NCBI GenBank assembly: GCA_029964075.1
Contig: CM057136.1
Coordinates: 10,106,001 to 10,170,000 of the forward strand
Direction: 5' to 3'
Length of the DNA: 64,000 nucleotides
Source of the DNA: Patiria pectinifera
Lineage: Eukaryota; Echinodermata; Asteroidea; Valvatida; Asterinidae
Part shown: piece by piece, positions 773 through 55,535 of the stretch
Numbering within the stretch: position 1 is the first letter of the stretch
How the letters are laid out: the number at the start of each line of letters is the position of its first letter
Program-made: the position numbers and the translations under genes
Notes under the pieces: model-generated
What the model was told of the DNA's origin: nothing
The model's input: only the letters and a program-made list of their open reading frames with translations
The model's database searches: none

Positions 773-860
773 AAAAACAGAACCCTGCTTGTATTCTTTT
801 TAGGGAGGCTATTTTACGTATAATTATGACTTTTTCATCGATCCCTCACCATTTAACACC

Positions 861-1325
861 ATGTCGGTTCAAATGAAACACCCATTCACCTGTGTCATAG
901 CTGGGCCTACTGGATGTGGCAAGACACAGTTTGTCAAACGTCTGTTGTTGCCTACTGGTGAAAACATCATCGACCCCCAGCCTGATTCTATTTTGTGGTG
1001 TTACGGCGAGTATCAAGATGCGTATACGTACTTAGCAAGTGCACTTCCCCATATCCAATTCAATGAAGGAATCCCCGAAGATGTTTACACCCACTTGGAT
1101 CGATCCAAGAAAACTCTAATCGTGATAGATGATCTCATGAGTGAAAGCGGCAACAACAAACGAGTGACAGAACTTTTCACGAAAGGAAGTCACCATAGGA
1201 ATTTGTCGGTGGTGTTGATTCTGCAAAATTTATTTTACAAAGGGAAAGAAATGAGAACCATCAGTCTGAATACTCACTACATGGTGCTGTTTAAAAATCC
1301 CCGCGATGGATCGCTGCGTATTTGA
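861..1325 (+). pseudogene. Truncated A32-like DNA-packaging ATPase (Polinton/adintovirus-type)
   Basis: A P-loop ATPase in the style of poxvirus A32/FtsK-HerA genome-packaging ATPases, which pump DNA into capsids. The frame opens with a natural ATG in context ACACCATGT. Residues 15-22 are a Walker A motif (G-P-T-G-C-G-K-T). Residues about 85-92 (T-L-I-V-I-D-D-L) form Walker B with its acidic pair. A downstream segment with Q-N-L-F and a conserved N-T-H-Y resembles the sensor region of the family. After the K-N-P-R-D segment (about base 1310) the family resemblance stops and the frame runs into a repeat, so the C-terminal part is missing. Together with the polymerase tail upstream it marks an old, broken virus-like transposon. 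An integrated free virus cannot be separated from a Polinton on this evidence. Confidence 0.65.
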
Positions 1326-1800: not shown

Positions 1801-4800
1801 CGATCATACAGCACGGTTGTTATTCAGTGTGCACTTGGCATGTTCACTTTGTTGAATGAAGAATTTCACAGGAATCTACATTTAATTTTTTTATGAACTG
1901 CAAATATTTTTTGTGTAGTTTTTAAGGAGTTTGAATAGACCTGTGTAGTTTTTTGTTGTAACTGTCATTTCAAATGAAGGATGGAAAGAAACATATCTTT
2001 CGTTCAATGTTCTGCAAAAGTTGAAACTCTTTTTAAACACCATTTTTTTTCTTCTAACGACCATTCATTTCAACCAAAAATACTGTATAACAAATATTTT
2101 GTTTTCAGGTAATAATCCCTTCACCAAATTTATTTTATTTTTCAGTATTATTTTATAAACTTGTATGCATCAAAGCATCTTTCCTCCGCCTGTCTAGTGT
2201 TGGTTCTGTTAATTTTGTTAGTTTCTGGATAATGTGTTCTTTATCTTTGTGTTTATTTGTGAGAGGCCAATATGTGTTGTCTACACTTCAAATTGTCTGT
2301 GTGTCCTGTATGCAATGATACATTGTAGTTGTTGAGCCTTGTACGGATCCCGTACATCTACATGTATCAAGCAATTGGCTGATACTACCGGTATGTATTT
2401 CATCCAAGGCATCATCAGCAGGAAGACAGCGTCTAAACCACCCATCAAACACAGCCTTCATTTTGCGTTCCTCTGTATCCCGGCTGGTTTTTTTTTTGGT
2501 TCTGAATATTTGAGTATTGTTTTTTTGTATTGCAGATGACTGGAACTTCTAGCATTTATTTGTTCAATTTCTTTTATGGATTTCCCAAGCTTGCTTCCCT
2601 TTTCCGTTGTCCTAAGATTCATGTTGTGCCATCTTTCATTATTTTCCCCTAGCGGCGATTCTACAAGACTTTCTATTATTAAACATGAGTCGTTTGAGTG
2701 AGTTATTATAATGTATGCACGCTGGATCAATATCAGTGCATAATGTGTTCTGTTAGGCTGTGCCTGCTGAACTTGTCATGCAACCTGAATGTAACGACAG
2801 AATTATTCAAATGACTTCAAGGGCCTTCCATCATATCCATAGAAGACAATAATGAACAAATGTCGACATTCTGTCATATTCAATGATTTACACAAAAATG
2901 TACATGTAAATGCCTGTTCCTGGGTGTATTCTTGAATAGATTATGAAAGTCAACATATTTTCTATTTAAATTCAAAGGACATTCAAAGTCATTGTCATTT
3001 TAGCAAAAGAGATGAAATAAGAGATGCATCTACATCTACAGCATCTAATGTTACGGAAGAATTTTAATAATTCTGTCACATTTTGTTAGTTGGATAATGC
3101 CAGACATGCATGCTACTGATAAAGGAGAGAAATATACTGAGCTATGACAATTTGTTCGTTTAAATTTGGTTTAAAACATGAGATTTGAATGAAGGATGTG
3201 ACCTTGCATTTAATTTTGTGAAGGTTTAGCAATGATTGGCATGATTGACTTGATAAATGATCAATGATTGACATAATAAATACATTTTAGCACTGACAGT
3301 CATTGAAGAAGAGAAAACTTAACCTCCCTTTATCACCCCATGTAGCACACTCACACCAGTAATTCAGTGTTGGTGTAAAGTACCTTGCCGGAAAAAAAAA
3401 ATACTGGTGACTAAACAGCAAAATCAAATATTTTATTACAGGCCTACATGTACATAGTATACCAGTACATGTTCTTGAAAGTGTTCAAAGCAGCATTATA
3501 TGTAGGGGCATGAGGCATGCAAGGCTGTGTTTGGTCATGCACATACAGGATCCTTTGTTGATGTGTTCATTGTACGTGTACTTGGACATGTACACAATGC
3601 ACTTGATAGTTGAAATGAGTGGCATTTTGCATGACATGGCATTTTGCATGATACATAATGTGAAAGATTGAGAAAAGTGATAACAATTAAGTTTGCGCCA
3701 TTATCAAAGTTTTCACTTGATCCAGCATTTTTCTGGAATTTCAGAATCACATTTTTAAATCCAAAGAGAGGTGTGAATGCATGGCCAGATGTAGCTAGCA
3801 AGAAGCATGTTCAAGCTTCACACTTTAATAGAGAGTTTGTATGAAGATAGAGTGGTCATATCATTGGTAAATGTCCCGCAACCAATGTCCGTTCTTCTTT
3901 GTGTTATTTAACATGGTTAAGGTGTTTTCAGTATTAACAAGTACATGTATGTTTATTCTGAACATGCACAAGGAACATCATGGTACATGTGTATAGGGTT
4001 CAAATTCTTGTTGGGCTTTTTTTTTGCAGACTTTGCATAAAATCCTTTGTTTTTGTTCAGATGTTTTTGTTCTTCTTCCTCCTTGATCTTCTATCCCAAA
4101 TTCTATGTACTTTGTATGTACCAGTACATGTTTCATTTTCTTTGCCACTTTGGACAATAAACATATTTCAATCTTGATGAAACTTGGCATACATGTACAC
4201 TAGGACCCCCATAGTAAAGTCGTGCATGGACAAAAAAAAAAAGTCACGTCACGATGACGTCATACATTGTAAGTCATGTACATGTAAGTCATCTTAAGGG
4301 TGCATTTTTCAATGGCCTACCGGTACATACACACGGACATGTATCTAAAGAACTACATTGTGCAATGTACAAGGCCCATTGGGTTGGAAAAAAACATAGT
4401 CAGGGAAGTGTTATAAATGAAATTTGAGGTGACATCATGATGACATCATCATACATGTCATATGATATGGATTTTTTGAAGTTTTGAAGATTATCACCAT
4501 ACCGGTATAGATGAACGAACATGCTACATTCAAAATTCTTTTGTATTAGGTTTGGTAAGTCATAAATAAATGCACAAAATTTCGAAAAATGTGTGATGTC
4601 ATCAATCGTGACATCATCAAAAATGTGATTTGTTTTTTGAAAAACAATAAGGGAAGGTCCGATTGTTATGAAACTTGGTGGGTAGGTACATGTACAATGT
4701 AGATATTGATAATAGTATGCAAAATCCAAAGTGTCCGAAAATCCGAAAATGTTGACATACATATGTAATGATGACGTCAAACAATTTTTTTTATTTTTTT

Positions 4801-7109
4801 TTTTATTTCATATATTTTCTAATTGCAAAATTTGACATGAAATGCAATCATTTGACTTCAACATCGGCATAATAATAAGACCCTAAACTATTGGTCCTAA
4901 ACAAGTGAAATCATGATTACATCATAATTGGACATGTGACGTAATCTGAAAGTTTTGATTTTTCTTTACTGTGTTTTTGATAATTTAGAAATGAAAGAAA
5001 TGAGATAAAGCCTTGACATGAAAATCTTCCTTAATATCAAATATCCTCAATAAACAGCCATTGTTTGCCCCCTGCATATGGTTACTGAGTTCAGTCTTCT
5101 ACAAAAGGGTTTTCTTTATATATACATGTACGTAGTTTAGTTGGGAATGCTTAAATTTAAATATGGAATGGTTGTGAGAATTATTCAATCAAAGAAATTT
5201 ACTTCTTTTGTGGAATGACACACATTTTATGTTACTTGAATTTTCAAAGTTTTTTGAAGGTCTGTGGACATACATGGATGCACCTACAAAATGTACATAC
5301 ATATACAAACTGTACAAGTAGCATTAGTTTTTGCTTTATGCAGTACGTTTCCTAAAAGCTTTTTGACGAAATTGTTATCCTTTTTCCATGATGTGATACA
5401 TGTACATGTACATGTACATGTATTTATAGCTCTCTGGTTCATGTCCATAATCATCAAGTCATCTTGTACTTTAGATCTGTTCCAACTTGTAACATGTGAA
5501 CACAAAATATTCCAAGTATCGAGGAAGGACTTGGGCATAAAAGCATTGCTTGTTCATTTCCATCTTGATGTGCATTCATTTGTGTTGTTTACAATGTTGG
5601 AATGATGATCCCATTGCCGTGATTGCTGTCTTCCTGAAATCATTTTGACAACTGTTGTATTTAAAGGTACAACTTACTGTACATATACTTTTTGAAATGA
5701 GCGTATTTGTATTGGACACGGCATCGTAAGATAGTTCATTTAAGCATTTCATAATTTTTTTTTGAATAAAGAAAACTGATGTACGATGAGGGCAAATCCT
5801 CCCTTCAGTCACTTTTCTTTCTTCATCCAAAAGTTGACTTCAAAAAGTCAGCTTTGCTTTGTAATTTATGTACATTGTAGCCTTTTTTTCAATAAGAAGG
5901 TAACCGTGGAGTCTGTTGCTTTTCTGCTCTTTAACCCTAACCATTCCAACTCCATCAAAATCCATCCCCCCATTTTGGTGGATTTTGGAGGACTTGGTCC
6001 AGAAGGCCTGGCATGACTAAATATTGATGGAGTATGATGGAGTATGATGGAATTGGGCCTAATGGCCTGAAGCAGTGCTAGGGGTATCCAATTGATTTTG
6101 CCTTGCTTCCTGTACTGCTATTGTGATACTACTAGTGAAAGCCATGTGTAGGATTGAATGGCAATTCCATTATGTCACAGTGATTGATGGATTTTGATGG
6201 ACTTGGTCCAGTTCCTAGTAAAAGACGCTAGGGAGTTAGGGTAATAATCACATTGTCTATCAATCTTCGGTCGTACGTGTAAGCCAGGTTATCTGGCAGC
6301 ATCACAACAAGTAATCACACCTCCAATCTGGTTGGATTCACTCTTCCTGCAAATTTTTTTTTCTACATACATGTATCTGCGAATGTTTGGCTAATTTGAA
6401 CATGTACCGGTACATTGGCTTGAAAGGAGACCTACATGTTCGTGTACTGTAAATGACAACTGATGTACATGTATTGGCCCAAGATCAATTAAAGGATCCA
6501 AAGTCAAGTAAATATTGTTTTTATTTATAGAGTTCAAAGTATACATTTTTTTGGTCAGAAGTTCATGTTTGTCATTCGCATACAAACCAAGAAACCAAGA
6601 TTTGCAATGTTGTATGTGTTTCAAAGATTTCATTTTTCAAAAGAGTTTTACTGTTTAAACAGAAATAGAGTTTTTAACTTCAATGAAAATAGTCCAATGC
6701 ATGTACATTGAAAAGGGGGGCATCAAAATGCATCAAAGAGTTGCATGCATGGATTACAAGAAGCCTGAATGCATCAGAAGAAAATGCATAAAATGTAAAC
6801 CCTGCAAGTTTCTTTATCATTCAGATTTCATTGTCTGTCAGATTTTGTTAAATACTTCTCTCCATTTCTTTTACAGCGTGCGCTGCATGTCAATGGTATG
6901 CTTCAAATTGCACCCATGCTAAACCATATCACTCTTATTTCACTTGATTTGAATCTTATCCACAATATCTCCCATTCTGCTCTCAGTTTTACCTCAAATA
7001 ACCAACTCAGTCTGACCTCTCATTCTTTCCTTTAGTTTTTTGGATGGAATGTGTCTTGTATTTCTTTATCCTTGTTGATTTGTTAAATTCCCCCTCCAAA
7101 TAACTTCAG
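1801..7109. other. AT-rich non-coding stretch, possibly intron
   Basis: No convincing gene. The stretch is AT-rich, carries many ACATGTA-type motifs, and contains a GTACAT microsatellite at 5397-5422. The block 4230-4960 is a degenerate copy of the CRE-satellite family also seen at 35.3, 44.6 and 49.2 kb (GATGACGTCAT-type motifs between AT-rich spacers). At 5940-6240 there are repeated ATTTTGGAGGACTTGG-like phrases. If the terminal exon at 7110 is real, part of this region is its upstream intron. Confidence 0.5.
5397..5422. repeat. GTACAT microsatellite
   Basis: About four uninterrupted copies of the hexamer GTACAT. The same hexamer forms a longer array at 46255-46296. Confidence 0.9.
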
Positions 7110-18964: not shown

Positions 18965-19275
18965 AAACCCAAAATTACTGTAAGTCCCGCGTCGAATGTA
19001 AACCCCAAAATTACTGTAAGCCCCGCGACGAATGTAAATCCCGAAATTACTGTAAGCCCCGCGTCGAACTAATGTATACCCCAAAATTACTGTAAGTCCC
19101 GCGTCGAATGTAAACCCCAAAATTACTGTAAGCCCCGCGACGAATGTAAATCCCAAAATTACTGTAGGCCCTAAGCCCCGCGTCGAACTAATGTATACCC
19201 CAAAATTACTGTAAGTCCCGCGTCGAATGTTAACCCCAAAATTACTGTAAGCCCCGCGACAAAATTGTAAACCCC
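18965..19275. repeat. Minisatellite in left arm of the 9.4-kb element
   Basis: About eight units of roughly 36-45 bases built on CCCCAAAATTACTGTAAG, each followed by CCCGCGTCGAATGTA or CCCGCGACGAATGTA. Two subtypes alternate (GCGTCGAA and GCGACGAA). Confidence 0.9.
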
Positions 19276-19899
19276 AAAATTATTTAAAGCGGGGTACCAG
19301 TCTACATGGACTGTACACAACGGCCTATCACTGCAGCGTGGCCGCGCTACATGGACTGTACACGTGCAACTTTTGCGTTTATTTGGAGGGGGCGTAATCA
19401 TACACGAAGCCACTATATGTTACATGTCAAGTCGGATTGGAGGGGAATTTTTTTTGGGGGGGGGGGCAGCCACCATGATCAATTAATATTGTCAGATTGG
19501 GAATTTTTTTCTTTTTTGAGAAGTGATTAATAGCTGAGAACATAGCAAGGATGGACCGATATGTGCAGGCTAAGTTCAGGGAATAATTTTCATGGTTGGA
19601 AAATTCCAAGAAAATTGCCAATTTGCCGCCGTGAAGTACAGTTGATTTAACGGGGAACAAAATTGGGTTTTGTTATCAGCATCAGCAGGACCGTTCCTCT
19701 TTCTTTTTACTTTTTTGGGAAAGGAGTCAAATGATCTGAGGACCGAAGGCTCTGCGAACTGATGAACATTTTTGACTTTATCTTGCGACCAGCATGACTA
19801 TAAGTCTTGTAAGTTGTAGGGGAAAACTCTGTTGATTTACACTGGTATGGATATCGGTACCAGTGTAGGTACATAATGCCTAGAGCGTATTTCAGAGAC

Positions 19900-26534: not shown

Positions 26535-27519
26535 CTAGTCAATTTTTATAATCCTACACATAAAAGCTGGTGGTTTGCAGTAGTGACCACTACCATCAGT
26601 GTATGAAACAAATCAGTCAATTACTCGTTACCCACGTGGGCATATGGTGTACCTGTAGAGGTCAATAGGCCATATATTCTTGGGCTGACCGCCACAAGGG
26701 GGTATTAAATTTATGTCCATTGGGGGGAGCTGTCACTTAGGAATGGATGTTTTCTTTCCGAGTTAGAAAGGTCTAACTCGGATTCGTTTAAATGGGAGAA
26801 ATTCGTAATGAAAAATCCTGCTCTCTGGGATATACCTAATCGGCCCGCAGGCGGTTTATACGTTGACAAGTTAACCCACCCACCGCCACCACCTTGTATC
26901 GGAACCGGAACTTCCTAAATGCGTATTTTACATATTAAAAACCTAACAAATACACTCTGGGCAGCTCAATTATGTAACTACACTGGTATCCATACCAATG
27001 TAAATCAACAGAAATATTCTCTATCAAAAATGTTCGCAGAGCCTTCGGTCCTCGGATCATTTGACTCCTAGCCCAAAAAGTACAAAAGAATGAGCAACAG
27101 TCCTGCTGATGATTATAACAACCCAAAACCCAATTTTATTCCCCTTTAAATAGTACTTCGAGGCGGCAAATTGTCAAATTTTCTTGGAATTTCCAACAAT
27201 AAAAATTATCCCCTGAACTTAGCCTGCACATATCGGTCCATCCTTGCTATGTTCTCAGCTATAATTCACTTCCCAAAAAAGAAAAAAAATCCCAATCTGA
27301 CAAAATTAATTGATTATGGTGGCTGGCCCCCCCCCCCTCAAAAATTCCCTTCCATCCGACTTGACACGTAACATAGTGGCTTCGTGTATGATTACGCCCC
27401 CTCCAAATAAACGCAAAAGTTGCACGTGTACAGTCCATGTAGCGCGGCCACGCTGCAGTGATAGGTTGTTGTACACCAGTCCATGTAGACTGGTACCCCG
27501 CTTTAAGTAATTTTGGGGT

Positions 27520-27985
27520 TTACAATTTTGTCGCGGGACTTACAGTAATTTTGGGGTTTGCATTCGTCACGGGACTAATACAGTAATTTCGGGGTATACA
27601 TTCGTCGCGGGACTTACAATAATATTGGGGTATACATTCGACGCGGGACTTACAGTAAATTTGGGGTATATACATTCGTCGCGGGGCTTACAGTAATTTT
27701 GGGGTATAGGCCTACATTCCTCGCGGCCGGGACTTACAGTAATTTTGGGGTATACATTCGTCGCGGCCGGGACTTACAGTAATTTTGGGGTATACATTCG
27801 TCGCGGCCGGGACTTACAGTAATTTTGGGGTATACATTCGTCGCGGCCGGGACTTACAGTAATTTTGGGGCATACATTCGACGCGGGACTTACAGTAATT
27901 TTGGGCTTTAAATTCGTCGCGATACTTACAGTAATTTTGGGGTTTACATTCTTCGCGGGGCTTACAGTAATGTTGGGTTTAGTTT
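27520..27985. repeat. Minisatellite in right arm of the 9.4-kb element
   Basis: About twelve units of roughly 35-40 bases built on CTTACAGTAATTTTGGGGTA plus TACATTCGTCGCGG. Four consecutive units (about 27720-27870) carry a CCGG insertion (GTCGCGGCCGGGAC), showing recent local amplification. It is the inverse complement of the left-arm array. Confidence 0.9.
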
Positions 27986-28201
27986 AATTAGTGTTTTATT
28001 GTACATTTAACACGAATGTTTTATTTGTTATGTTTATTTTTTTTTATTTTTTACGTTTCAATTTTGTTTTGTTGTCCTACATTTTCATTGTTAATGGCAC
28101 GTTATTGTTGTTGTTTTTTTTTCATTTTATTTTATTTTATTTTTGCTTAACTTTAATTTTGTGATTGTCTTTTTTTGCCCTAATGGCCGCCCATAATTTG
28201 T

Positions 28202-35844: not shown

Positions 35845-35944
35845 CTGAACCAAAACTGAAGTCCAGCTTCCAGGCGATCCCAGTCGTCAGAACGATTACG
35901 ACTGTCGTGAACAAGACGAAGACGAGACGAGGCCGAGTTTTCAT
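35845..35944 (-). pseudogene. Orphan inverted copy of the mutase membrane-anchor exon
   Basis: On the minus strand an ATG at 35944 opens 33 codons ending at donor TTCAG|GTAATTCC after base 35845, in phase 1. Residues 15-31 share T-V-V-I-V-L-T-T-G-I-A-W-K-L with the anchor exon at 43511-43607. Similarity extends into about 130 bases of upstream sequence and 240 bases of following intron (35592-36073 versus 43383-43822, opposite strands). No second mutase exon occurs on the minus strand to the left within the window. It is therefore either the 5' end of a divergent paralogue whose body lies over 35 kb away or is lost, or a bare exon duplication. N-terminal residues differ more (K-T-R-P-R versus M-N-R-Y-R). 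Confidence 0.6.
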
Positions 35945-43510: not shown

Positions 43511-43607
43511 ATGATGAATCGGTATCGTCTCTTCGTCTTGTTGGCGACAGTCGTAATCGTTCTGACGACTGGGATCGCCTGGAAGCTGGAATTCGGTTTT
43601 GGTTCAG
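43511..43607 (+). CDS. glf: Exon 1 of the mutase gene: signal-anchor
   Basis: ATG at 43511 opens 32 codons plus one base, ending at donor TTCAG|GTAATT. Two basic residues (R4, R6) precede a hydrophobic run (about residues 7-24, L-F-V-L-L-A-T-V-V-I-V-L-T-T-G-I-A-W), then a short glycine-rich link. This is a type-II signal anchor or an uncleaved signal sequence, typical of Golgi glycosylation enzymes. The donor is phase 1 and the main exon at 53353 opens in phase 1, so joining them gives an uninterrupted frame through a glycine codon. The link spans a 9.7-kb intron and is inferred; transcript data would settle it. The exon is duplicated in inverted orientation at 35845-35944. Confidence 0.6.
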
Positions 43608-43822
43608 GTAATTCCTTTCAAATATTGCTATATATTTTACCCTCTGCGTTTCGATTTTGTGTTTCTGTTTTGACTACATATAGCGGTCATCGGGTGAAAC
43701 AGTAACACCTGTCGAGACTTGTGACTTTCTGTTTTAATTGAGATGGTCAGTAGTCAATTTTGTTCCAACACAACGTGTAAATACATTGGTGAAATGAAAA
43801 GTCGGTTTCTGTTTCGAGCTCT

Positions 43823-44389
43823 CAAAGCAGATGTGCGTTTGATACGGTATTAAGAGAGTCACCAATGGCGGCGATGCACTTGGCGGGAAACATGTCTAGT
43901 AAATGGAGGGGGGGGGGGTTGTTGTTGTTAATCAGCCCCTTTTTTTGTGTCTGATGCATCATTTGCATTTATTTCTTTTTTGGGAAAAATCCTTACGTGG
44001 ATTAACGATCTACTAGTACTAAACACCCCATGGGCTTGCAGATGGTTGGAAACAAAATCGCATGTCCACAGATTGACTGTGATACAATTACTCACATATA
44101 TAGCATATACCAACAGTTTCTCTTCATACCAGAAAGTACATTACGTTTCAGCAATGGCTTTATGGTTTAAGATTTAGTGAAGAGTCCAAAGGGTTTGTGG
44201 CAGAGTTCAGAACGTACGTATATATGGGTCATGATTATACAAATAACAACTACTATTGTAGCCGACAAGTGTTTCGGCCGGGTGCCGGTATTATTACACC
44301 TTGCTAAGCCATTCGTGGTTGTTCAAGGAATGTTGATAACATTTTGACGAATGGTTTGAAATCCAAAAGGTTCAGCTGTCTTTTTAATA
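43823..44389. other. Intron sequence, nothing recognised
   Basis: First part of the inferred mutase intron. A G-run at 43907-43918 and AT-rich sequence; no exon seen. Confidence 0.5.
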
Positions 44390-45150
44390 ACGGTGGTGTA
44401 TTACGCATGCACGTTTCTCCCCCGTACTGCCTTACCGTGGAACTTTTTGCTAGAATCATCAGCTGCTTCGGGAAAACGTTCCGAAACAGTTCTTGTTTTC
44501 GTTAAGTGTTTTTCTTCTCCTTTTTCAGACGTTTTTCTTCAACTAGTAAACTTTGACACGTTCAAAATCCAATTAATCTCAGACTTGGCATTCATGTAGA
44601 CCGCCACCCACATTTGGTGTTAGAAGATTTTCGTCATCAAAGGTCATCATGTGTCAAATTACGTCAAAGTAAAGGTGCATTTTTTTCTCCATACGATTTG
44701 TACACGTTTTCTTCCACCAGTACACTCTGGGACTTTTGTAAATGTGATCGACTTCAAACTTCGTACACACATCGACCACCACCCGTAGATGGGCCCCGAG
44801 GATTTTTGTCATCATGACGTCATCAGGGGGTCACGTTACGTCACATCTAAGATGCATTATTCAAAAACTTATATCGTCTGAAGTACAAGTGAGATTGGGT
44901 TGACAATTTGTTGGCACATATACAGGGACGTGTTATACATGAAAGTTGAAGTGACGTCGTGATGACGTCATCACAAATCATGTGACGTCACATTAAAGGG
45001 GCACTTTTCTAAGGACTAAATCTAAAGAACTCTTGGTTCGATTTGGTTGTAACTTGATATGTACCATTACCGGGATGTGTTATAGATGAACATTCAAGTG
45101 ACTTCATTGTGACGTCATCACACTTCATGTTACGTCACATTAAAGAGGCA
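44390..45150 (+). repeat. Repeat D followed by CRE-satellite array
   Basis: 44390-44612 is repeat D copy 2. 44613-45150 holds about four satellite units of 110-130 bases with GTGACGTCR, GATGACGTCATCA and GTTACGTCACATYTAAGATG-like motifs, each separated by an ATCTAAAGAAC or ATATCGTCTGAAGTACAAG type spacer. At least three TGACGTCA octamers are present. Confidence 0.8.
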
Positions 45151-46254
45151 TTCGAAACATTTGGTGTGTCCACATTTGTAGTTATAGTTATTGTTGGTTT
45201 ATTAAAAAACCAACGTGTCCGTGCCCAAATTAAAACAGGCCGTATGACTAATGTCTTGTACTGGTGATATTCTATTTATTGACTTCTCTCATATTTTATC
45301 TTATACTCATAAAAAGAGTATGTCAAATGGGTTGGTATGTAGCCAAATGTTGGCAAATACCAACTGCCTTTACTTTTAGGCAAATGCTTCCCAATCATTG
45401 GTGAAATTTTATCCGCCAATGAACCAACAATAAGGTAATTCATACAAATGTTTGGGCAAATAACATTGTCCATTAGTTTTGTACCCAACAGTTTTTTGTC
45501 AAAGTGTTGTTCAATCGAAACATCAACAGATCCTTTTATTAAACGTCGTTTTTTTCTTTCTTTCCTGTTTTTTATCGAACGATCGACTTCAACTGTCCCT
45601 TGTTTCTTTGTCTGTGCATTGTTATGTGCAGTAAATATTGTTGATTTCATTCTGAACACAATTAAAATGAATGTACAAAATAGGAAAGGAAAAAACGCAG
45701 TTTAATTGAAGGAATCCATGATTGAGTTACATATAACGGACCCTATAACCAATGCACATCACTTTCGATGCTATACATTTAAGTTCTTTGGTAAACAAAA
45801 ACAGTAAAAAAGGTAAAGGGGGACGAACCTGTGTTCACAGGAACGGAGTGTCCATCTCTCATTCATAGCGATTGGGCCAGACTCATATGCTGCTGTGGGG
45901 GAATCGCCACACCTCCTCCACAGTGAGTCTGTTACCTTCCCAGCATTGAATAATGCCGGTACCCATTTAACACCTGGGTTGGTAAACAAATGCCATTTTA
46001 TTTCATCAGAATCGAGGAGAGTGGTTTGTTTGAAGACCCGGCATTAGGGACGGTGATTTTTTTTTCTTTTGGCCGTTGGTGATTCGTTCGCATGATTTAG
46101 GCTACTAGTACCTTAAGCTTAATAAGGCGGGAGTCAAGGGTCATTTGGTTCTGTTTCGCTGACATAGACATGAATTCACAGGTTCACACACACGACGGAC
46201 CCCTGACCGTCACACCGTACTACGAAGCCCGGCACACAGCACACCCGTACATTT
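45151..46254. other. Intron sequence, no supported gene
   Basis: A 127-codon minus-strand frame (45276-45659) has no recognisable motif and lies inside the inferred intron; I do not call it. Confidence 0.4.
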
Positions 46255-46296
46255 GTACATGTACATGTACATGTACATGTACATGTACATGTACAT
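46255..46296. repeat. GTACAT microsatellite
   Basis: Seven uninterrupted GTACAT units. Confidence 0.95.
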
Positions 46297-47269
46297 ACAG
46301 GCCCTACATGTACAGCACTGCCCGTGGTCCATTATAATCCGTGGGCTATGGGGGTCCCAGTGCACCGCCTCCCCACCCCCCACCCACCGCCACTGATATT
46401 TTTATTTAAACCTTGGCATGTCCCCAATAGGAAAAAAAATATGTTAGCAGTAAAAATGTAGGGATGCACTCTCTCAGAAGGCCATTTGTTGTAATTAACC
46501 GCCTCCGATTGAGCTTACATGCATTTTCTTAGCACTTGGGTTGAAAGGGGAAGAAACAAAACGCCATAACCTGAGCAGACTTTGACCGATCTTAATCAAA
46601 CTCAGCACAATTCTTCTTCTTCATGAATAGGTATTTTGAAAAATATCTTTGGTTGTCGTGGAAACCAACTATAGAGGGGGCTACAGTCAATAAACACATT
46701 TATTTTTAAAATGTCCCGAACAATTCCTCATCATTAACATTCCAATTCACTTTTCATCTTGAAAGCCACCAAATCATACAACAGCACCTAATATAATATG
46801 ATTATCCAACTGCTGTTGAGCTACTTTGAGAGTTACGTGTGGGCAAATTGAAAATAATATACATTTTGAATAAGTTAAACACTGTCTTAGCCTTTGGGTC
46901 GGTAGGTGTCGGGTCAATCTTCCAGATACATGCACATACCTTTACCAATCTTAATAACAGTTCAATATATTTATCATTCTGAAAATGCCTTGAATCGTCA
47001 TGGAAACCGAATACAGAGGGCCCTATGGGCTCCGTGCGCTGAAAAAAGAGGGCGCGTTTTTACCGCTTTTGAAAGCTCCGTGGACGGGACACACAGCGTG
47101 CGCGGACTGAACTGTACTGGTTCGCGCGCGAAGTACACACGACTTCCTGAATATGCAAAAGCTATAGCCACCGCGTCTTTGCGTGAGCCTCAGGCCAACC
47201 TCGTTCCCATGAGTACGAGATCTTGCTGCGCATGTTGTTTCCCATCATGCCTTGCGAAATCTCAACGCG

Positions 47270-47745
47270 CACGCGCCCGAAGGGCGTTTTCGATTCCCTG
47301 TTCTTGACAACACTCGGGTTAACCCGACACGAGAACAGCGGTCTCGAACGTGACGAACAGACCCAAGAGGGCGTTCGCGGATCGATTTTTTTCACTCCCC
47401 GGTTGATGGAGGGTTCGGCGAGGTGCAGCTTGAACAAAATGGCGGACTGTGCAGATTCATAAGTTGTTTTGTGTTTTTTTTTTTTGCTAATACCCTAATG
47501 ATTGGAATAAGAATACCATTATAGTGCAGGTCTGCAATTTCATTCCCGCACGTCCGGTTTTGCAACAGTCGTCCTCGTTCATTTGGAATAGGCCTAAGTA
47601 CAAATTCAGACGATTGTCGGCCATTTTGCATTGCTTTATATCGATGCAACACGCACCCGTGCGTTCGTTACAACCAGCTCGAGAACACGTTCTCGTATTA
47701 CACGCGTGTTGTCAAGAACAGGGATTCGAAAACGCCCATTGAGTC
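47270..47745. repeat. CpG-rich hairpin
   Basis: 47270-47345 (GGGCGTTTTCGATTCCCTG, TTGACAACACTCGGG, CGAGAAC) is inverted at 47688-47745. The inner parts share AAAATGGCSGAC in both orientations (47438-47449 and 47616-47628). CpG density is far above the surroundings. It could be a hairpin element or an inverted pair of CpG-island 5' ends; AAAATGGCGG resembles a start-codon context, but only six codons follow. Confidence 0.55.
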
Positions 47746-47825
47746 GAGGCCGGCCTCAGGCGTCGTCGGTGCGCGAATACGTTCGAATTCAACTTGCGAT
47801 GGTCTCTACCACTACATGTACTCAG

Positions 47826-50800
47826 TTGCCCAAGACTATCATATAGTTGTAGAGATCTCCAACCTTCCCAATCGGATGCAAGAGACCAACAGTTGCCTGG
47901 AGATACTGAAACAGTCTGAGGACAACCACTGTAGTGGAGCTGCTAAGCGAAAAATCGTGCACTTTGTGGTAAAAGCATGAAATTTGGCATGTGGGGTCAA
48001 AATGGGCTAAAAATCATTTTAAGATCGGGACCCATCCTGGATCTTGCCCATTTTTGGGGCGGAGCTTGATTTTCCAAAAAAGGGGGTGCAAACAATACAA
48101 ACTCATGAAAACTGTATTTAACATCAAATTTCCTTGTTTTTTTACGCTTTGAAATAAACTTTAACATGAAATAAGACATTCTAGCATTCTAACACCTGTT
48201 ATTTTCCACCCATTTTGTGGGCGTGGTCTAAATGGTAAAAGAGGCGGTATATCTTAGCAGTTTGGTTCTAATATGGAAAACATCATTCAGTTTGGTGGTA
48301 AAATTCTGAAAAATGGCATGTCCAATTGAAATGGGCTAAACATAATTTTTAGAGGTGAACGCATCTTGGATCTTGCCCATTTGGGGGCGGAGCTTGATTT
48401 TTCAAAAGGGGAGTGCAAAAATAGAAAACTCAGAAAACTGTATTTTACATCCACTTTGTTTCTCATGCTTTGAAACAAAGTGGATGTAAATTCTAACATT
48501 CTAACACGTGTTATTTTCACCCTTTTGCGGGCGTGGCCTAAATATGTAAAGAGGCGGTACATTAGAGCAGCTTGATTCAAACGAGGGAAAATCATCTTTC
48601 TTCTCATTGTCTTCTCTATACGTGTTTTTTTTTCGGGGTTTGCGAGCTACAGTGCCTGGGGCATGCACTTTTGAGAAATCCTTGGTTTCATTACCAGACA
48701 ATTTTTTTTTATCGTTTATACTTCGTTATGTATGAATAAAAAGGAGTAAATGTTTCAGATTTCAAATATGCACTTGTCATTCACAAGGCTGGGTTGGGGC
48801 AACCTTGAAATTATAAAGCAAATAATTATATGTTAATCGCGTAAAATTAATATTAACAAAGTTCATAGGGTACAAAAGATACCATGTTCGTATGAATAAA
48901 ACATGGCATTTGCTTTTACTTCCAATTTTGAAGCATTTACTCGCATCTGTATGAATGAAAATTAAGCAAACACTTTTATTCAAAACCATTTGCTAAAATC
49001 TGAAAATAATTAGTTTTTACCTTTTAGGTTTTGCTACACTTAAAGCGTTTACTAGTATGAATATAAAAGAAGTAAATGCTTCAGATTTCAAATATTTACC
49101 TGTCATATTTCTGAAGTCCTTTATCTACAGAACTGTAAGTCCGATTGGGTTGAAACTTGGTATGTGGCCAGACCGGGATGTGTTATAGGTAAAAAAAAAT
49201 GAAGTGACGTCATGATGACGCCATCCTGAGATTTTATATGAATATTTGAATTTTTGGACCGTTTAGCCATATCTCACGAACGCAACATGCAAAGTTAAAA
49301 ATTCTTTTTTGTATTTGGTTTGTTAGGTAATAGGTATTTGCACAACATTTTTGAAAAACTTGGGTAGGTAGATAATGGTACTAGTATGCAAAGTCCGAAG
49401 TGACGTCACGATGACGTCATCGTTTGATTGTTTAAATATTTATTATTTTATTCTGCTTCCAAAATTGCACACTTTCTTTCATCGGATTGACATTAAACTT
49501 GGTTCAAACCAAGACCACAATGACAAAATGTGTATTGAGAAGGGTTTTAAAGATGACGTCATTGCAGGGCATGTGACGTCATGTGATAAAATTATATTTT
49601 AGGAATTATTCTAAGCATTTGAACAACCTTTAACTGCTGAAGCACTATGACAAGTGACTGCTAAAGGACCAACGTAACATAAACATTTGTAAAATGCGAA
49701 AAGCCCTGTGTTCTGTTTGCAAACAGACATGGTGTCTTTTTTTATTTCATCTTTTTATTTTTAATATGACGTCACGTGACATGTGACGCCATATTAAAAT
49801 TACATATTTTGAAGGCCAATATCTACAGAACCACTGGTCCGATTGGGTTGAAAGTTGGTATGTACCTAGACCGGGATGTGTTATAGATGAAAATTGAAGT
49901 GACGTTATGATGACGTCATAATGGGTTACGTGACGTCTCGTTAGAGATTAATAGATTTGATCTTTAAAAATCATTATAAAATCAACCGTGAGAGACCTGA
50001 ACATGATTTTCGTGCGATATGATAGAATTATCGAGGGTCTTCATTTTTTATGTAATGTGCAAAATGTTATTTTGTAATAACGTTTTGCATGTACTACTTT
50101 CAAAATCTAGGATATGAAAGCCGATAAGCTTTCTTTTAGTACAAGAATCATTCAAATCACTCATATGTACTTTTCAAGAATTTTAAACACAACCACTGTT
50201 TTAAAGTTCTGTCCACGTATCACAAAAAATGGTGTGTGTTCTTTCAGCAAAACGAAAACAATTCCAGCGCATCCCCCTATATGTGAAGTGTTTTCGTTTT
50301 GCTGACAGGACTTTTAAGACGGTGTTTGTGTTTAAAATTCTGTAACTTGAAAAGTACATAAGTGATTTGAATGATTCTTGTACTAAAACAAAGCTTATAA
50401 ATTGGGCTTTCATATCTTGATTTTGATAGTGCTTCATGCAGAACTTCATTAAAAAAAGTTGTCCTGCCATTTGGGTTTCCTTTTTTTTTTACTCACCCTG
50501 TGTAAGTTACTTGTAGACAATCATACCAATTTAGATATGATTTTTTTATAGCCGCCTACCTTAAAATGTAGCTCCACCCCTAAAGGGCAACAATTAGTCT
50601 TGCAACCGTTTAAACTTATCTTTACAGTGTATGGTAAACATAGTTAACTGATGGAAAAGTTGTGTTTTTACCAGCAAAAATTTACAGTTTTAGAGGTGGG
50701 AGGAAAACCCCAGAAGAATAGTCTGGGGAAAACCCACGGAGTCAGGTAGGGACTGAAAAGCCAATCGACATGTAGACCATGGGTGTCGATGCACAGCGCA

Positions 50801-52310
50801 TTGTGCACGTAAACGGCATTGCGTTCGTCACGTTTGGTGCGCTTTTTTGTATCTGTCCTCCAGCACGTGACCCTCCCCAGTGCCGCTTTCCGTTTCGGTT
50901 TCGATAGTTTTATTTTCTGCAAACCTATAAACGTGTAAAGCTTACATTTTGCAGGCCATTTACTCAAGAGCAAATGGTTTTTAGTAAAGTGTTTGCTTAA
51001 TTTTCATTCATACAGATGCGAGTAAATGCTTCGAAAGTGGTAGAAAAAGCAAATGCCATGCTTTATTCATACAAACATATGGTATCATTTGTACTTTATA
51101 AACTTTAATAAATGCAGTAGTTTATGCGCAGAATTATTCTGCTTTATAATTTCAAGGTTGCCCCAACCCAGCCTTGTAAATTACAAGTGCATATTTGAAA
51201 TCTGAAGCATTTACTCCTTTTTATTCATACTAAACGAAGTAAACGATTATTAGGCCAAAAAAGGCTCTGGTTTCTGGTATGCGCGCGCGTCGCCATAGCC
51301 ATGCGCGTCGGCAATGTAAGATGATGTCTTTCAATGTAAGATGATGTCTCAAACCACCAAACTCACTGGTTCGACTGGAATCCTGCTGCTGCACAATCTT
51401 AACGTGTTATTTCTCATAAAGTTATTTCTCACGTCTAAGTTTATTTCAAGCATGAAGAACAAAGGAAAATGGATGTTAAATACAGTTTTTCTGAGTTTTT
51501 TATTTTTTGCACTCCCCTTTTTGAACAATCAAGCTCCGCCCCCCAAAATTGTGCAAGATATAAGATGTGTTCACCTCTTAAAATTATTTTCAGCCCATTT
51601 TAACTGGACCTGCCAATTTTCAGGATTTTACTACCAAACCGAATAATGTTTTCCATATTAGAACCAAACTGCTAATATATACCGCCTCTTTTGTACATCA
51701 TTAGCCACGCCCACAAAATGGGTGGAAATTAACTGGTGTTCGAAAGCTAGAATGTTATATTTTATGTTTAAGTTTATTTCAAACCATAGAAAAACAAGGA
51801 AAATGGATGTTAAGTACAGTTTTTATGAGTTTGTATTGTTTGCACCCCTTTTTAAAAAAAAATCAAGCTCCGCCCCCAAAATGGACAAGACCCAGTATGG
51901 GTCCCGATATTAAAATGAATTCTAGCCCATTTTGACATCATTTGCCAAATGTCATGCTTTTACCACAAAGTGCACGAATTGGGCCAAAAATGGACCTAAG
52001 CAGCGCCACTATATTGTATTCCAGGGCACAGTACCCCGATATATCGGTTCGTCTATCAGTGACATCTGGTGCCCTATTCTCTTCCAGACAATCCAATGGG
52101 TCACCTTCGTACGGAAAGTTCCCACACCTTAGTCAGTCTGTGGGTCTCCTACACCCTTGAAAACTTTGTTCACAACTTCCTTCCATCACACTTATACCCC
52201 AATGATCAGCTACATGTACATGTAGCATCCCCTGCCCAAGTCATCCTACACAGCAGCTCTTTGGTCGTTGGAATCCCTCTTACTCCTGACGAAGAGCAAA
52301 GCATACTATC
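47826..52310 (+). CDS. Two exon-like segments of an unrecognised gene split by a foldback element
   Basis: Exon Y (52088-52310) has an excellent acceptor (CCCTATTCTCTTCCAG) and donor (CTATC|GTAAGT). Of three frames only one is open across all 223 bases, opening in phase 1 and closing in phase 2. It encodes S-L-W-V-S-Y-T-L-E-N-F-V-H-N-F-L-P-S-H-L and ends P-L-T-P-D-E-E-Q-S-I-L. Exon X (47826-47930) follows TGTACTCAG and encodes D-Y-H-I-V-V-E-I-S-N-L-P-N-R-M-Q-E-T. It could end in phase 1 at CACT|GTAGTG, matching Y. The 4.1-kb inner foldback begins exactly at that weak donor, so the insertion may have created or destroyed the junction. Y cannot splice in frame to the mutase exon. Family unknown; Y is the better-supported half. 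Confidence 0.4.
49100..49960 (+). repeat. CRE-satellite array in the foldback centre
   Basis: Several diverged units with GTCATGATGACGCCATC, ACGATGACGTCATCG, GTTATGATGACGTCATAA and RTCCGATTGGGTTGAAA phrases, same family as 44.6 kb and 35.3 kb. The TRCCTAGACCGGGATGTGTTA phrase recurs twice. Confidence 0.75.
50101..50427. mobile_element. About 327-bp palindromic MITE
   Basis: CAAAATCTAGGATATGAAAG at the left pairs with CTTTCATATCTTGATTTTG at the right. The arms run about 140 bases, including AAAGTACATAAGTGATTTGA, around a short centre near 50230-50300, where a second inner pair carries GCAAAACGAAAAC. Confidence 0.85.
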
Positions 52311-52311
52311 G

Positions 52312-53352
52312 TAAGTCCCAACCCTGGAGTTTCCCCTGCCCCTGGTTCCTTAAGACACTCACAAAGTAATAAAAAAGAAAGTTGTCTCGTCTTAAACTTA
52401 TTCTTTAAGGGTTTAAATACAAAATTAACCACAACGTTTAAAACCTGTGAACCACGCTGTTATAAAACTATTAAAACTGTTACAAAGCTATTTTTTAAAG
52501 ATTTATTCATGAAGAATAATTGTGCTGAGTTAGATTAAGATCGGTCAAGGTCTGCTCAGGTTATGGCGTTTTGTTTCTTCCCCTTTCAACTCTAGTGCTA
52601 GGAAAATGCATCTAAGCTCAATCAGAGGCGGTTACAATAAATGGCCTCCTGAGAGAGTGCATCCCTAAATTTTACGCGTTAACATTTTTTTTCTATTGAG
52701 GACATGCCGAGGATTAAAAAAAAATATCGGTGGCGGTGGGTTCTGGGGGTAGGGGATGCACTGGGACCCCGCATAGCCCACGGACTATATATATGAGGAC
52801 CACAACTTTGGTTCAACTGTAACTTCCGGGTTTGCGGATGTGTTAACTAGAATGAACCGTGCTTACGATCCAACGGATCTCATTGGCACTTGATTGGAGG
52901 CGCCACGCTGTTTTAAGACATGCCGTGGGTGGCTACGCGGTTGCGCCGGTATTGGGTTACCTAACCAACAATCATTGATCTGTAGCGTGATTCGCCGATG
53001 AGGCGCATACATTATTCATACTGCAAATTTCCACATCATACCCCCTTCCCCCCTTTTCACGTTCCTTTATGTTTGAATTAGACATCGGAGGCTTCCACAA
53101 AGACACTCACAAGGATGTGAAAATTTCCCCCGTTAAAATAAAATAGATACATTGAAATATATTTTCTGAAGAGCACCGGTAAAGCACAAATAAGCAACAT
53201 GTTTATAATTACCAAAAAAATAATTACCGCCTCTGTTCTCTTCAAATTAGGAACACACACTGCACTATACTTGTTGACATCAGGTTGCCTAATTTGGATA
53301 AGTGTCCTTATCATAAATAATTATAATTTATTGTTTCTTTTACTCCTTCCAG
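52312..53352 (+). other. Intron 3' end ahead of the mutase main exon
   Basis: Contains the right arm of the outer inverted repeat, then about 540 bases of unique sequence. It ends with a textbook polypyrimidine tract and acceptor TTTCTTTTACTCCTTCCAG. A second plausible acceptor (CTCTTCAAATTAG, exon from 53251) would also be in phase 1 and would add 34 mostly hydrophobic residues; I prefer 53353. Confidence 0.6.
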
Positions 53353-55535
53353 GGATAGACACAGGCCGTGCATCATCTGTACACACCAGCCGGGAAAATG
53401 AGAAACAGTCTTTTCATCGACAACATCAAATCGTCATCATCGGCTCCGGACCTACCGCTCTGGGTGCTGCTAAAAGACTCTACGATATCGAGCAAGGCAA
53501 AAACAACAGCGTGATCACTATCCTGGAAGAGCTAGGCAAACCAGGAGGCCTAGCCTCGTCCGTCAGGGATGATAAAGGCTTTCTCTGGGACGTCGGAGTT
53601 CACGTCGTATTCTCCCATTACACCTACTTTGATCGAGTCCTGAACATGGCAGTACCCGAGTGGAACTACCGGCGCAGGGCGTCTTTTGCCTTCATGAAAG
53701 GATCAGATGACAAGAGGAGGTTCATTCCTTATCCAGTTCAGAACAACATCCACGTCATGGATAAAGTTGATCAGCAGAGAAGCCTGAAAGGCTTAGAGGA
53801 GATTACCAAAAATCCCAGCACCCGTAAACCCAACAATTTCGACGACTGGCTGCTGCAGAAATTCGGAGAGGGTCTCACTGACGTCTTTATGAGGAAATAC
53901 AACCGGAAAATCTGGACAGTTGACACCAAAGAAATGAACTCGGCCTGGGTTGGAGAGAGGGTTGCCGTACCAGACATTGAAGAGATCAAGACCAAGATTA
54001 AAGAGGTAGATAACGAGACGGACGCCAAGGATTCCGAATGGGGACCGAACCGTTTCTTTCGTTACCCCAAATATAATGGGACTGGTGGAATTTGGGAGTC
54101 AGTTGCAAGAATGCTTCCAAGCCACTGGTTCAGATTTCACGAAAAGGTAACTGCAATTGATATTGACCGAAAAATCATCACTATCGAGGCTGGAACTGGC
54201 GTTAAGAGGCATTACCCATTAGCATACGATACCCTTATATCGACGGCCCCCTTAGATGTTTTTACATCATTAATGCAAAGCGACGATGTTTCCCTATGGC
54301 AGATGCAAGAGCTAGCATCACAGTTGGTGTACACGCACACTCACATCGTAGGCATCGGCCTCACCGGTCAAATGCCTAGGATCCTCGCTGATAAATCTTG
54401 GGTTTATTTCCCGGATTCTGATTCTCCTTTCTACCGCGTGACAATGTTCTCCAATTATTCAGATGACCATGTCCCAAAACCTGGAGAATACTGGTCGCTT
54501 ATGTGCGAAATAGCCGAACCACAGAAAAGTTCTAATCCAGCGTATTGGAGTAAGGAAAACTTGATCAAAGAATCCATTCAAGCCTTAGTCTTGTACGGGT
54601 TTATCACTGCTGATATGGTAGTCTCCAAACACTACCGTCGCTTGGATCACGGATACCCTGTCCCTTCACTAAAAAGGGATATGATCCTTGACACGATACA
54701 GCCTTGGCTGAAAATCAAAGACATCTACTCCCGTGGACGGTTTGGAGGTTGGAGATACGAGGTTGCGAATCAAGATCATTCCTTCATGCAAGGGGTCGAG
54801 GTCGTGGACAAGTTCCTGAGCAACGTCCCGGAGTTAACTTACCCGGATCCGAATCTCGCCAACTCCAAGAAAAACACGGATCGCACCATACCTTTGGATT
54901 ATGAATTCGTCATCGCCCATTATAACGAGAATCTTGATTGGATGAAGCCTTACGCCGACCACACCCTCATCTACCATCAAGGGAACGACCTGGGTCCACC
55001 ATTCCAGTTCTACGGTTGGGAGCGGCTGGAGAATCTAGGACGCGAAGCTCACGCTTATCTTGTTCACATCACCACCTACTACGACCGACTTGCTGATGTC
55101 ACTGTCTTTGCTCAGGGAGACAACATGGAAGGACATTGTTACGAAAATATAACACAGTATATCGATTCTGCCAAAAAGGGTGTCCCTTGCAAAAGAATAC
55201 AGGTACTCAAAAATTGGGGGCATTTGTATTTCCCTGCTAAATATTTAGCTCGTTTTAAGACTTACAAACTAACCATGGCAAATGGGACTTTAGGAGAGAT
55301 GTACCAAGATCTGTACGGTCAGCCACCACCAGCCAAAGGAATTTGGGTCTGCTATAACGGCTGTTTTGGGGCTACCAAGCAACAGATCCTAAGACATCCA
55401 CTAGCCTTCTATCAGAAGGCTCTAGCCTATATTAGCAAAACTCCAAATCAGGAAGAGGGTAATTACTTAGAGAGATTGTGGTATCACTTCTTCGAAGGAG
55501 TTGATACACCTTCCGATGCCCAAGCCGCAAACTAA
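53353..55535 (+). CDS. glf: UDP-galactopyranose mutase fused to DUF3431 (main exon)
   Basis: Flavoenzyme that interconverts UDP-galactopyranose and UDP-galactofuranose, with a C-terminal domain attached. Numbering assumes splicing to exon 1 (759 residues total). Residues 58-526 are eukaryotic-type mutase: FAD fold G-S-G-P-T-A-L-G (63-70), G-G-L-A-S-S (97-102), histidine loop D-V-G-V-H-V-V-F-S-H-Y (112-122), W-V-G-E-R-V-A (231-237), G-T-G-G-I-W (275-280), the substrate-arginine segment F-Y-R (392-394), G-R-F-G-G-W-R-Y-E-V (494-503) and N-Q-D-H-S-F (505-510). Residues 548-749 match DUF3431 as I know it: A-H-Y-N-E-N-L-D-W, N-L-G-R-E-A-H-A-Y-L, D-V-T-V-F-A-Q-G, G-C-F-G-A-T-K-Q-Q-I, R-H-P-L-A-F-Y-Q-K and Y-L-E-R-L-W. 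DUF3431 has no proven function; a glycosyltransferase role is my inference. The canonical Gly-Gly-His of the histidine loop reads Gly-Val-His. Without exon 1, an ATG at 53199 would give another hydrophobic N-terminus. Confidence 0.93.

Follow-up and report, generated by a model that had tools for sequence, protein, structure and literature searches.

Does one starfish polypeptide both make a furanose donor and use it? The question is raised by a 64,000-nucleotide stretch of the Patiria pectinifera genome (assembly GCA_029964075.1, contig CM057136.1, positions 10,106,001 to 10,170,000 of the forward strand; hereafter the window), in which a gene joins a eukaryotic-type UDP-galactopyranose mutase (UGM) to a DUF3431 domain (PF11913). 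The UGM-DUF3431 fusion is real and conserved, and it is undescribed as far as searches of the open-access literature reach, in which no printed description of it was found. Our best reading, drawn from gene association and starfish chemistry, is that DUF3431 may be an uncharacterised family of galactofuranosyltransferases. With a probability of roughly 0.6, the starfish protein would be a membrane-anchored two-domain enzyme, of which the UGM half makes UDP-galactofuranose (UDP-Galf) and the DUF3431 half is a glycosyltransferase using galactofuranose (Galf) or a close furanose.

Architecture and spread of the fusion

The UGM part of the protein matches 14 distinct PDB sequences, all of them UGMs (from Aspergillus, Trypanosoma and others), with E-values of about 1e-111 to 1e-115, in agreement with the original prediction of an animal UGM. 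The DUF3431 domain that had been proposed at the C-terminus is real: a profile search against PF11913 gives 49.6 bits (E 5.4e-13) against a curated cut-off of 25, and the match begins eight residues past the end of the alignment to fungal UGM. The two-domain architecture recurs, among the named homologues, in starfish (Patiria miniata, Acanthaster planci), a sea cucumber (Holothuria leucospilota) and corals (Desmophyllum pertusum and Oculina patagonica). A search for homologues of the fusion yielded 4032 proteins above threshold, and PF11913 is present in 112 of the best 120; a chance fusion or two run-together genes is ruled out by this recurrence. In some fusion paralogues (P0115, P0119 and P0081) the NVGRE-x-H motif is gone, so that their DUF3431 half looks degenerate.

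Each half also occurs alone. PF11913 is absent from eight of the best 120 homologues, among them starfish proteins of Acanthaster (P0093), Patiria (P0105) and Asterias amurensis (P0111), and starfish, fungi and bacteria all have stand-alone DUF3431 proteins of about 200 amino acids (aa) or more (2550 matches in a length-limited search, of which the best 120 were listed). Because UGM-only and DUF3431-only proteins both occur in starfish, the one-protein Galf system that the original prediction considered possible needs a qualification: the sufficiency of the single protein is unproven. Nor is the domain mainly one of fungi and algae, as had been supposed, since it is found in bacteria and viral contigs as well. 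Several stand-alone DUF3431 proteins of P. miniata and Acanthaster (among P0126-P0142), some of them isoforms of one gene, come from contigs of a single length in each starfish (38,186,250 and 3,395,331), which suggests a local expansion of such genes in each of the two.

Gene neighbourhoods and relatives of DUF3431

Independent support for the prediction that DUF3431 is a likely user of UDP-Galf comes from gene neighbourhoods. Viral-contig loci were collected by DUF3431 alone (the best 80 of 165), and bacterial-type UGM (GLF) was sought in them with a model built from two viral neighbours, both PF03275 by Pfam. GLF is present in 64 of the 80 loci, as it is with a broader GLF model; it is on the same strand as DUF3431 in 62 of the 64 and downstream on that strand in 55. 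The two genes lie within 1 kb of each other in 60/64 and within 50 bp or overlapping in 43/64, distances that were taken between stop-to-stop frames and so slightly understate the gaps. When the DUF3431 sequences are clustered, GLF accompanies 35 of 45 clusters at 90% identity, 26 of 36 at 70% and 14 of 20 at 50%; Pfam confirmed PF03275 in seven sampled genes (six viral, one bacterial). Control loci were anchored on GT11 (the best 80 of at least 574), chosen because a GT4-type query taken from bacterial locus L019 found no viral relatives and a GT17 query yielded just six loci, in part on contigs that the set already included. GLF occurs in 7/80 control loci versus 64/80 DUF3431 loci (Fisher p 5e-21, the loci not being independent), and the GT11 seeds were themselves neighbours of GLF, an upward bias in the control. 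Two further viral contigs (L154 and L155) have no DUF3431 within the fetched stretch and carry a UGM of eukaryote type, at 41-42% identity.

Bacterial loci, 73 of which were likewise collected by DUF3431 alone, add three cases. Two loci of Planctomycetaceae have a eukaryote-type UGM upstream of DUF3431, at 94 bp in L044, which also has a GT90 gene, and at 2.4 kb in L019, which also has a group-1 glycosyltransferase gene; in the third, L030, GLF directly abuts DUF3431. DUF3431 is repeatedly paired with UGMs of both classes. Locus L030 (positions 529-1971 and 3521-5164; a metagenome-assembled genome of Proteobacteria) has GLF accompanied by a second UGM-like oxidoreductase (E 6e-25 against the fusion UGM model), and in its GLF frame some 177 residues stand ahead of the FAD-binding part.

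Several of the surveys weigh against this reading. DUF3431 is found in 18 of the 80 GT11-anchored loci, with GLF in just three of those 18 (by clusters, 2/12 GLF-linked in the control versus 32/43 in the DUF3431 scan); the GLF link is therefore subfamily-specific, and 64/80 reflects the DUF3431s that score best against the query. Judging by these 18 loci (within L242-L321), of which 15 are without GLF, DUF3431 seems to be a frequent component of viral glycan cassettes. When viral loci were anchored on GLF instead (the best 80 of at least 565), 12 of the 80 contained DUF3431, and one viral DUF3431 query matched none of the 50,697 phage records of INPHARED, 88 of which have GLF. A UGM lies in the fetched stretch of only 3/73 bacterial loci. 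Ten other bacterial neighbours, from eight loci, comprise six unrelated housekeeping or transport proteins, one FAD oxidoreductase, one RmlD and two without a match, so that RmlD is the sole one pointing to sugar chemistry; matches to PF00535 (GT2) number just three in a set of 85 proteins, mostly neighbours. Together, the 3/18 and 3/73 results indicate that UGM linkage marks some DUF3431 branches, not all. At the level of the domain itself, a profile search of PDB sequences gave DUF3431 no credible relation to a solved structure, and hhalign comparison with 21 GLF-adjacent family clusters gave a probability below 1% for each. Myoglobins had the lowest E-values in the PDB search, over one stretch of the profile, and were judged spurious.

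The many DUF3431 genes that have no UGM nearby would be expected if DUF3431s were glycosyltransferases of varied donors, with UDP-Galf serving only some branches and the animal branch perhaps using another furanose donor, such as fucofuranose (Fucf) or arabinofuranose (Araf), or the pyranose donor. We consider this rather unlikely, as the direct fusion to UGM favours Galf for the animal branch, and so does the tree. In a midpoint-rooted FastTree phylogeny of 278 representatives, of which the rooting is arbitrary and the intervening node supports are mixed (0.66-0.99), the fusions group with a set of stand-alone proteins, adjoin more of them, including a lichen-fungus protein (P0198), and are nested in a group of 147 tips (support 0.97) with 15 viral representatives, 11 of them GLF-linked. 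When two viral representatives found by the GLF-anchored scan alone are dropped, 9/13 remain GLF-linked, the nine coming from eight loci; thus the viral DUF3431s nearest to the fusions are mostly linked to GLF.

Whether DUF3431 is catalytic at all was considered from its conservation and its fusion partners. It could instead assist UGM and glycosyltransferases by binding the acceptor, by regulating them or as a scaffold, consistent with the failure of the PDB-sequence and Pfam searches to link it to a transferase: a scan of 78 DUF3431s for distant transferase families (E up to 10, HMMER filters on) matched 19 Pfam families, none credibly. Two viral-contig DUF3431s, moreover, are fused to partners that already include a transferase domain, GT17 in L151 (E 6e-20) and a PF03407 nucleotide-diphospho-sugar transferase in L125 (E 4e-9). 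The same two fusions also count in favour of the galactofuranosyltransferase reading. Another, in L124, is joined to a methyltransferase-like part below the Pfam cut-off, and five other long DUF3431 frames (L019, L064, L077, L089 and L101) have no partner domain above that cut-off. A non-catalytic role is nonetheless improbable in our estimation: ten columns (Y44, L62, N64, G66, R67, E68, H70, F89, E210 and W213), several of them polar, are invariant in all 78 aligned and diverse proteins, the window protein included, which looks enzyme-like, as does the existence of stand-alone DUF3431 proteins in bacteria, fungi and animals. Published information on the family includes a DUF3431 gene that neighbours celA in Aspergillus nidulans and has a predicted membrane anchor (PMC5519750) and a salt-stress gene of A. 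glaucus assayed for tolerance (PMC4212599); the accessible portions of the open-access literature searched report no enzyme activity for DUF3431.

Gene structure, location and state of the window copy

The original prediction placed the start of the coding feature at position 53353, the base immediately following a splice acceptor, and overlooked an upstream exon that encodes a membrane anchor (Table 1). The stretch 53353-55535 on the forward strand is the second of two exons of the starfish fusion gene. Its frame is open from 53142 onwards, closes with the stop at 55535 and would encode 778 aa if counted from the ATG at 53199, the open reading frame (ORF) of Table 1; this ATG was rejected as the start of the gene because it sits within the intron, exon 1 lying at 43511. 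The donor of exon 1 reads TTCAG|GTAATT and the acceptor of exon 2 reads CTTCCAG|GG. In a tblastn search, residues 1-32 of the P. miniata protein LOC119731443 (P0001) align at 43514-43609 and the remainder at 53352-55520, and the spliced product of 759 aa, which has no internal stop, is colinear with P0001 across the junction. The window protein is 94-95% identical to a P. miniata protein, in keeping with the echinoderm source that the original prediction had considered.

Table 1. Positions of the fusion gene, its domains and a neighbouring exon within the window
Feature	Position	Strand	Basis
Exon 1 of neighbouring paralogue (like P. miniata LOC119731445, P0002)	35845..35944	-	97% identity to P0002 N-terminus
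Exon 1 of fusion gene, encoding MMNRYRLFVLLATVVIVLTTGIAWKLEFGFGS and first base of next codon, then GT donor	43511..43607	+	tblastn with P. miniata P0001 residues 1-32, 94% identity
Predicted signal anchor (transmembrane), residues 7-25 of the spliced protein, after two Arg	43529..43585	+	Kyte-Doolittle 19-residue mean 2.11; putative type II orientation
Intron, GT...AG, 9745 bp	43608..53352	+	Donor and acceptor read in sequence; junction matches P0001 protein
Exon 2: UGM domain, DUF3431 and stop	53353..55535	+	ORF, Pfam and PDB-sequence matches, spliced translation
UGM region, eukaryotic type	53427..54890	+	PDB sequence matches 3ukh, 3ute, 4dsg and others, residues 77-564 of 778-aa ORF
Histidine loop Gly-Val-His (G61-V-H63, AfUGM numbering), Val in place of conserved Gly62	53595..53603	+	Mapping onto AfUGM
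DUF3431 domain (PF11913) with N-x-GRE-x-H core	54912..55499	+	Pfam match, residues 572-767 of 778-aa ORF

The predicted anchor is the sole hydrophobic segment of the protein, the highest Kyte-Doolittle mean elsewhere being 1.21. A survey of 92 fusions and like-sized homologues of at least 680 aa placed the UGM start by motif in 42, of which 33 have at least 25 residues before it; a comparable hydrophobic segment precedes UGM in 19 of these 33, and the three UGM-only starfish proteins named above likewise have one at the N-terminus. Three cysteine columns are occupied in 46, 56 and 80% of the DUF3431 representatives from fusions, versus 0-5% of those from bacteria and viruses and 18-24% of other stand-alone proteins. 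N-glycosylation sequons number 86 in the DUF3431 part of the fusions versus 26 in reversed sequence, and 208 versus 175 in bacterial and viral DUF3431 frames. The window protein carries sequons at positions 83, 253, 274, 400, 631 and 676. From these features, a lumenal location of the fusion protein appears likely. In the UGM part sequons are in excess as well (199 versus 109 reversed); this was dropped as a sign that the UGM half is lumenal and is uninformative there, since four prokaryotic or viral UGMs show the same bias (10 versus 1).

The favoured two-domain enzyme would work as follows. The UGM half would convert UDP-galactopyranose to UDP-Galf, and the DUF3431 half would move Galf (or a closely related furanose) from UDP-Galf to an acceptor, for which the alpha-galactose of starfish gangliosides is a plausible candidate. 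Both domains are probably held in the Golgi lumen by the N-terminal anchor, so that UDP-Galf would be produced at its site of use. We know of no precedent for a UGM working in the Golgi lumen, and the topology, if true, would to our knowledge be unprecedented. Fungi produce UDP-Galf in the cytoplasm, from where a transporter brings it into the Golgi (PMC4630932). An extension of the scheme that we hold only tentatively, and judge on balance doubtful, is that such a lumenal Galf machine needs no UDP-Galf transporter and that the expanded starfish copies, with an altered histidine loop, have diversified to making and transferring Fucf or Araf, which cap starfish gangliosides.

Starfish glycolipids contain the products that such enzymes would make. 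That some starfish have Galf glycolipids was part of the original prediction, and the literature confirms it. Ganglioside GP-3 of P. pectinifera contains beta-D-Galf-(1->3)-alpha-D-Galp as well as alpha-L-Araf, and AG-2 and AG-3 of Acanthaster have a terminal beta-Galf on C-3 of alpha-Galp (PMC8228791); PNG-2A and PNG-2B of Protoreaster are further Galf-bearing glycolipids (PMC3509529). Acanthaster AG-1 has a terminal beta-Fucf on C-4 (PMC8228791), and the occurrence of beta-Fucf and alpha-Araf on starfish gangliosides is a point in favour of varied donors. The authors of that work infer separate furanosyltransferases, including a beta-1,3-galactofuranosyltransferase, and the section concerned names no gene (PMC8228791). 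The Galf gangliosides of starfish being known chemically, the fusion is a concrete candidate gene for this galactofuranosyltransferase.

The claim that the window copy carries every landmark of a eukaryotic UGM holds for most of the domain and breaks down in the histidine loop. Twenty-five positions of the Aspergillus enzyme AfUGM, chosen as active-site or adjacent, were compared, and 22 are identical in the window copy; the changes are G62V, I to V at position 65 and T to E at position 152, the latter two positions being presumably non-catalytic. All 14 positions that we take to be catalytic or substrate-binding (H63, Y104, Q107, N163, W167, R182, N207, Y317, R327, Y334, Y419, R447, Y453 and N457) are identical. 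The G61-G62-H63 signature of eukaryotic UGM reads G-V-H, and it is the remainder of the domain that establishes UGM homology. In AfUGM, the Gly62 carbonyl flips upon flavin reduction and reaches bonding distance of flavin N5 (PMC3624792). The motif is readable in 104 of the best 120 homologues (16 were unread), and Gly62 is kept in 95 of the 104; it is replaced in eight starfish copies, by V in P0001-P0005 and P0009, by F in P0006 and by L in P0012, and by Asp in one further homologue. This group of starfish copies again lends some weight to the idea of varied donors.

Two near-invariant DUF3431 residues, K46 (K in 77/78) and T71 (T in 76/78), are Q and A in the window protein, and P203, also near-invariant, is Q. 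Together with V at the flavin-touching G62 site, Q46 and A71 count against a Galf-making and Galf-using role for this particular copy, which may be altered; V at G62 puts its mutase activity in doubt. The three substitutions would be explained if the window copy were a decaying or repurposed duplicate, with a dead mutase and some other role for the protein, and starfish do have several paralogues, some of them UGM-only or DUF3431-only. The intact 759-aa frame, its 94-95% identity to P. miniata and the retention of the remaining compared UGM active-site residues make decay improbable.

If the two-domain galactofuranosyltransferase reading is correct, it provides a testable function for DUF3431, a family that spans animals, fungi, bacteria and viral contigs (the 2550 matches of the length-limited search), and the viral GLF-DUF3431 pairs and the coral and holothurian fusions are small systems in which that function could be tested.

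Elsewhere in the window, exon 1 of a paralogue resembling P0002 lies head to head with the fusion gene, about 7.6 kb away; tblastn gave no match to its exon 2 within the window. An ORF at 804-1325 (forward strand) matches the adenovirus IVa2 (E 6e-8) and poxvirus A32 (E 9e-7) families and may be the packaging ATPase of an element resembling a Polinton or an adintovirus. Chance tblastn fragments at about 19000-19300 and at 27300-28000, with similar repeated peptide phrases on opposite strands, suggest a short repeated element.

Comparison with known systems

The fusion shares with the eukaryotic UGMs (AfUGM/GlfA and TcUGM) the whole UGM domain, the same end region (VNGRQNTERR / ANSKKNTDR) and the compared active-site residues save G62. 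The solved chains of those enzymes, at 484-519 residues, are too short to include DUF3431, whereas the starfish protein adds a signal anchor and DUF3431. The stand-alone PF11913 proteins of fungi, bacteria and starfish have the same domain and invariant motif, but without the fusion to UGM.

Among known eukaryotic users of UDP-Galf are the LPG1-type Galf transferases of Leishmania. Like fungal GfsA, they belong to families other than DUF3431, and we know of none in either group that is fused to a mutase. GfsA resembles the proposed starfish enzyme in being a eukaryotic protein that uses UDP-Galf in the Golgi (PMC4630932).

DUF4422, the N-terminal domain of WbbM, is not a relative of DUF3431 by the sequence tests used: it had no match in the Pfam scan of 78 DUF3431s described above, and WbbM had none in the PDB-sequence search with DUF3431, the sequence set of which should presumably contain it. 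It is now GT111, a galactofuranosyltransferase, and the Kingella gene pamA (predicted GT111) is in a locus with pamB, a UGM (PMC12269835). DUF4422 thus provides a precedent for DUF3431, being likewise a former domain of unknown function that adjoins UGM.
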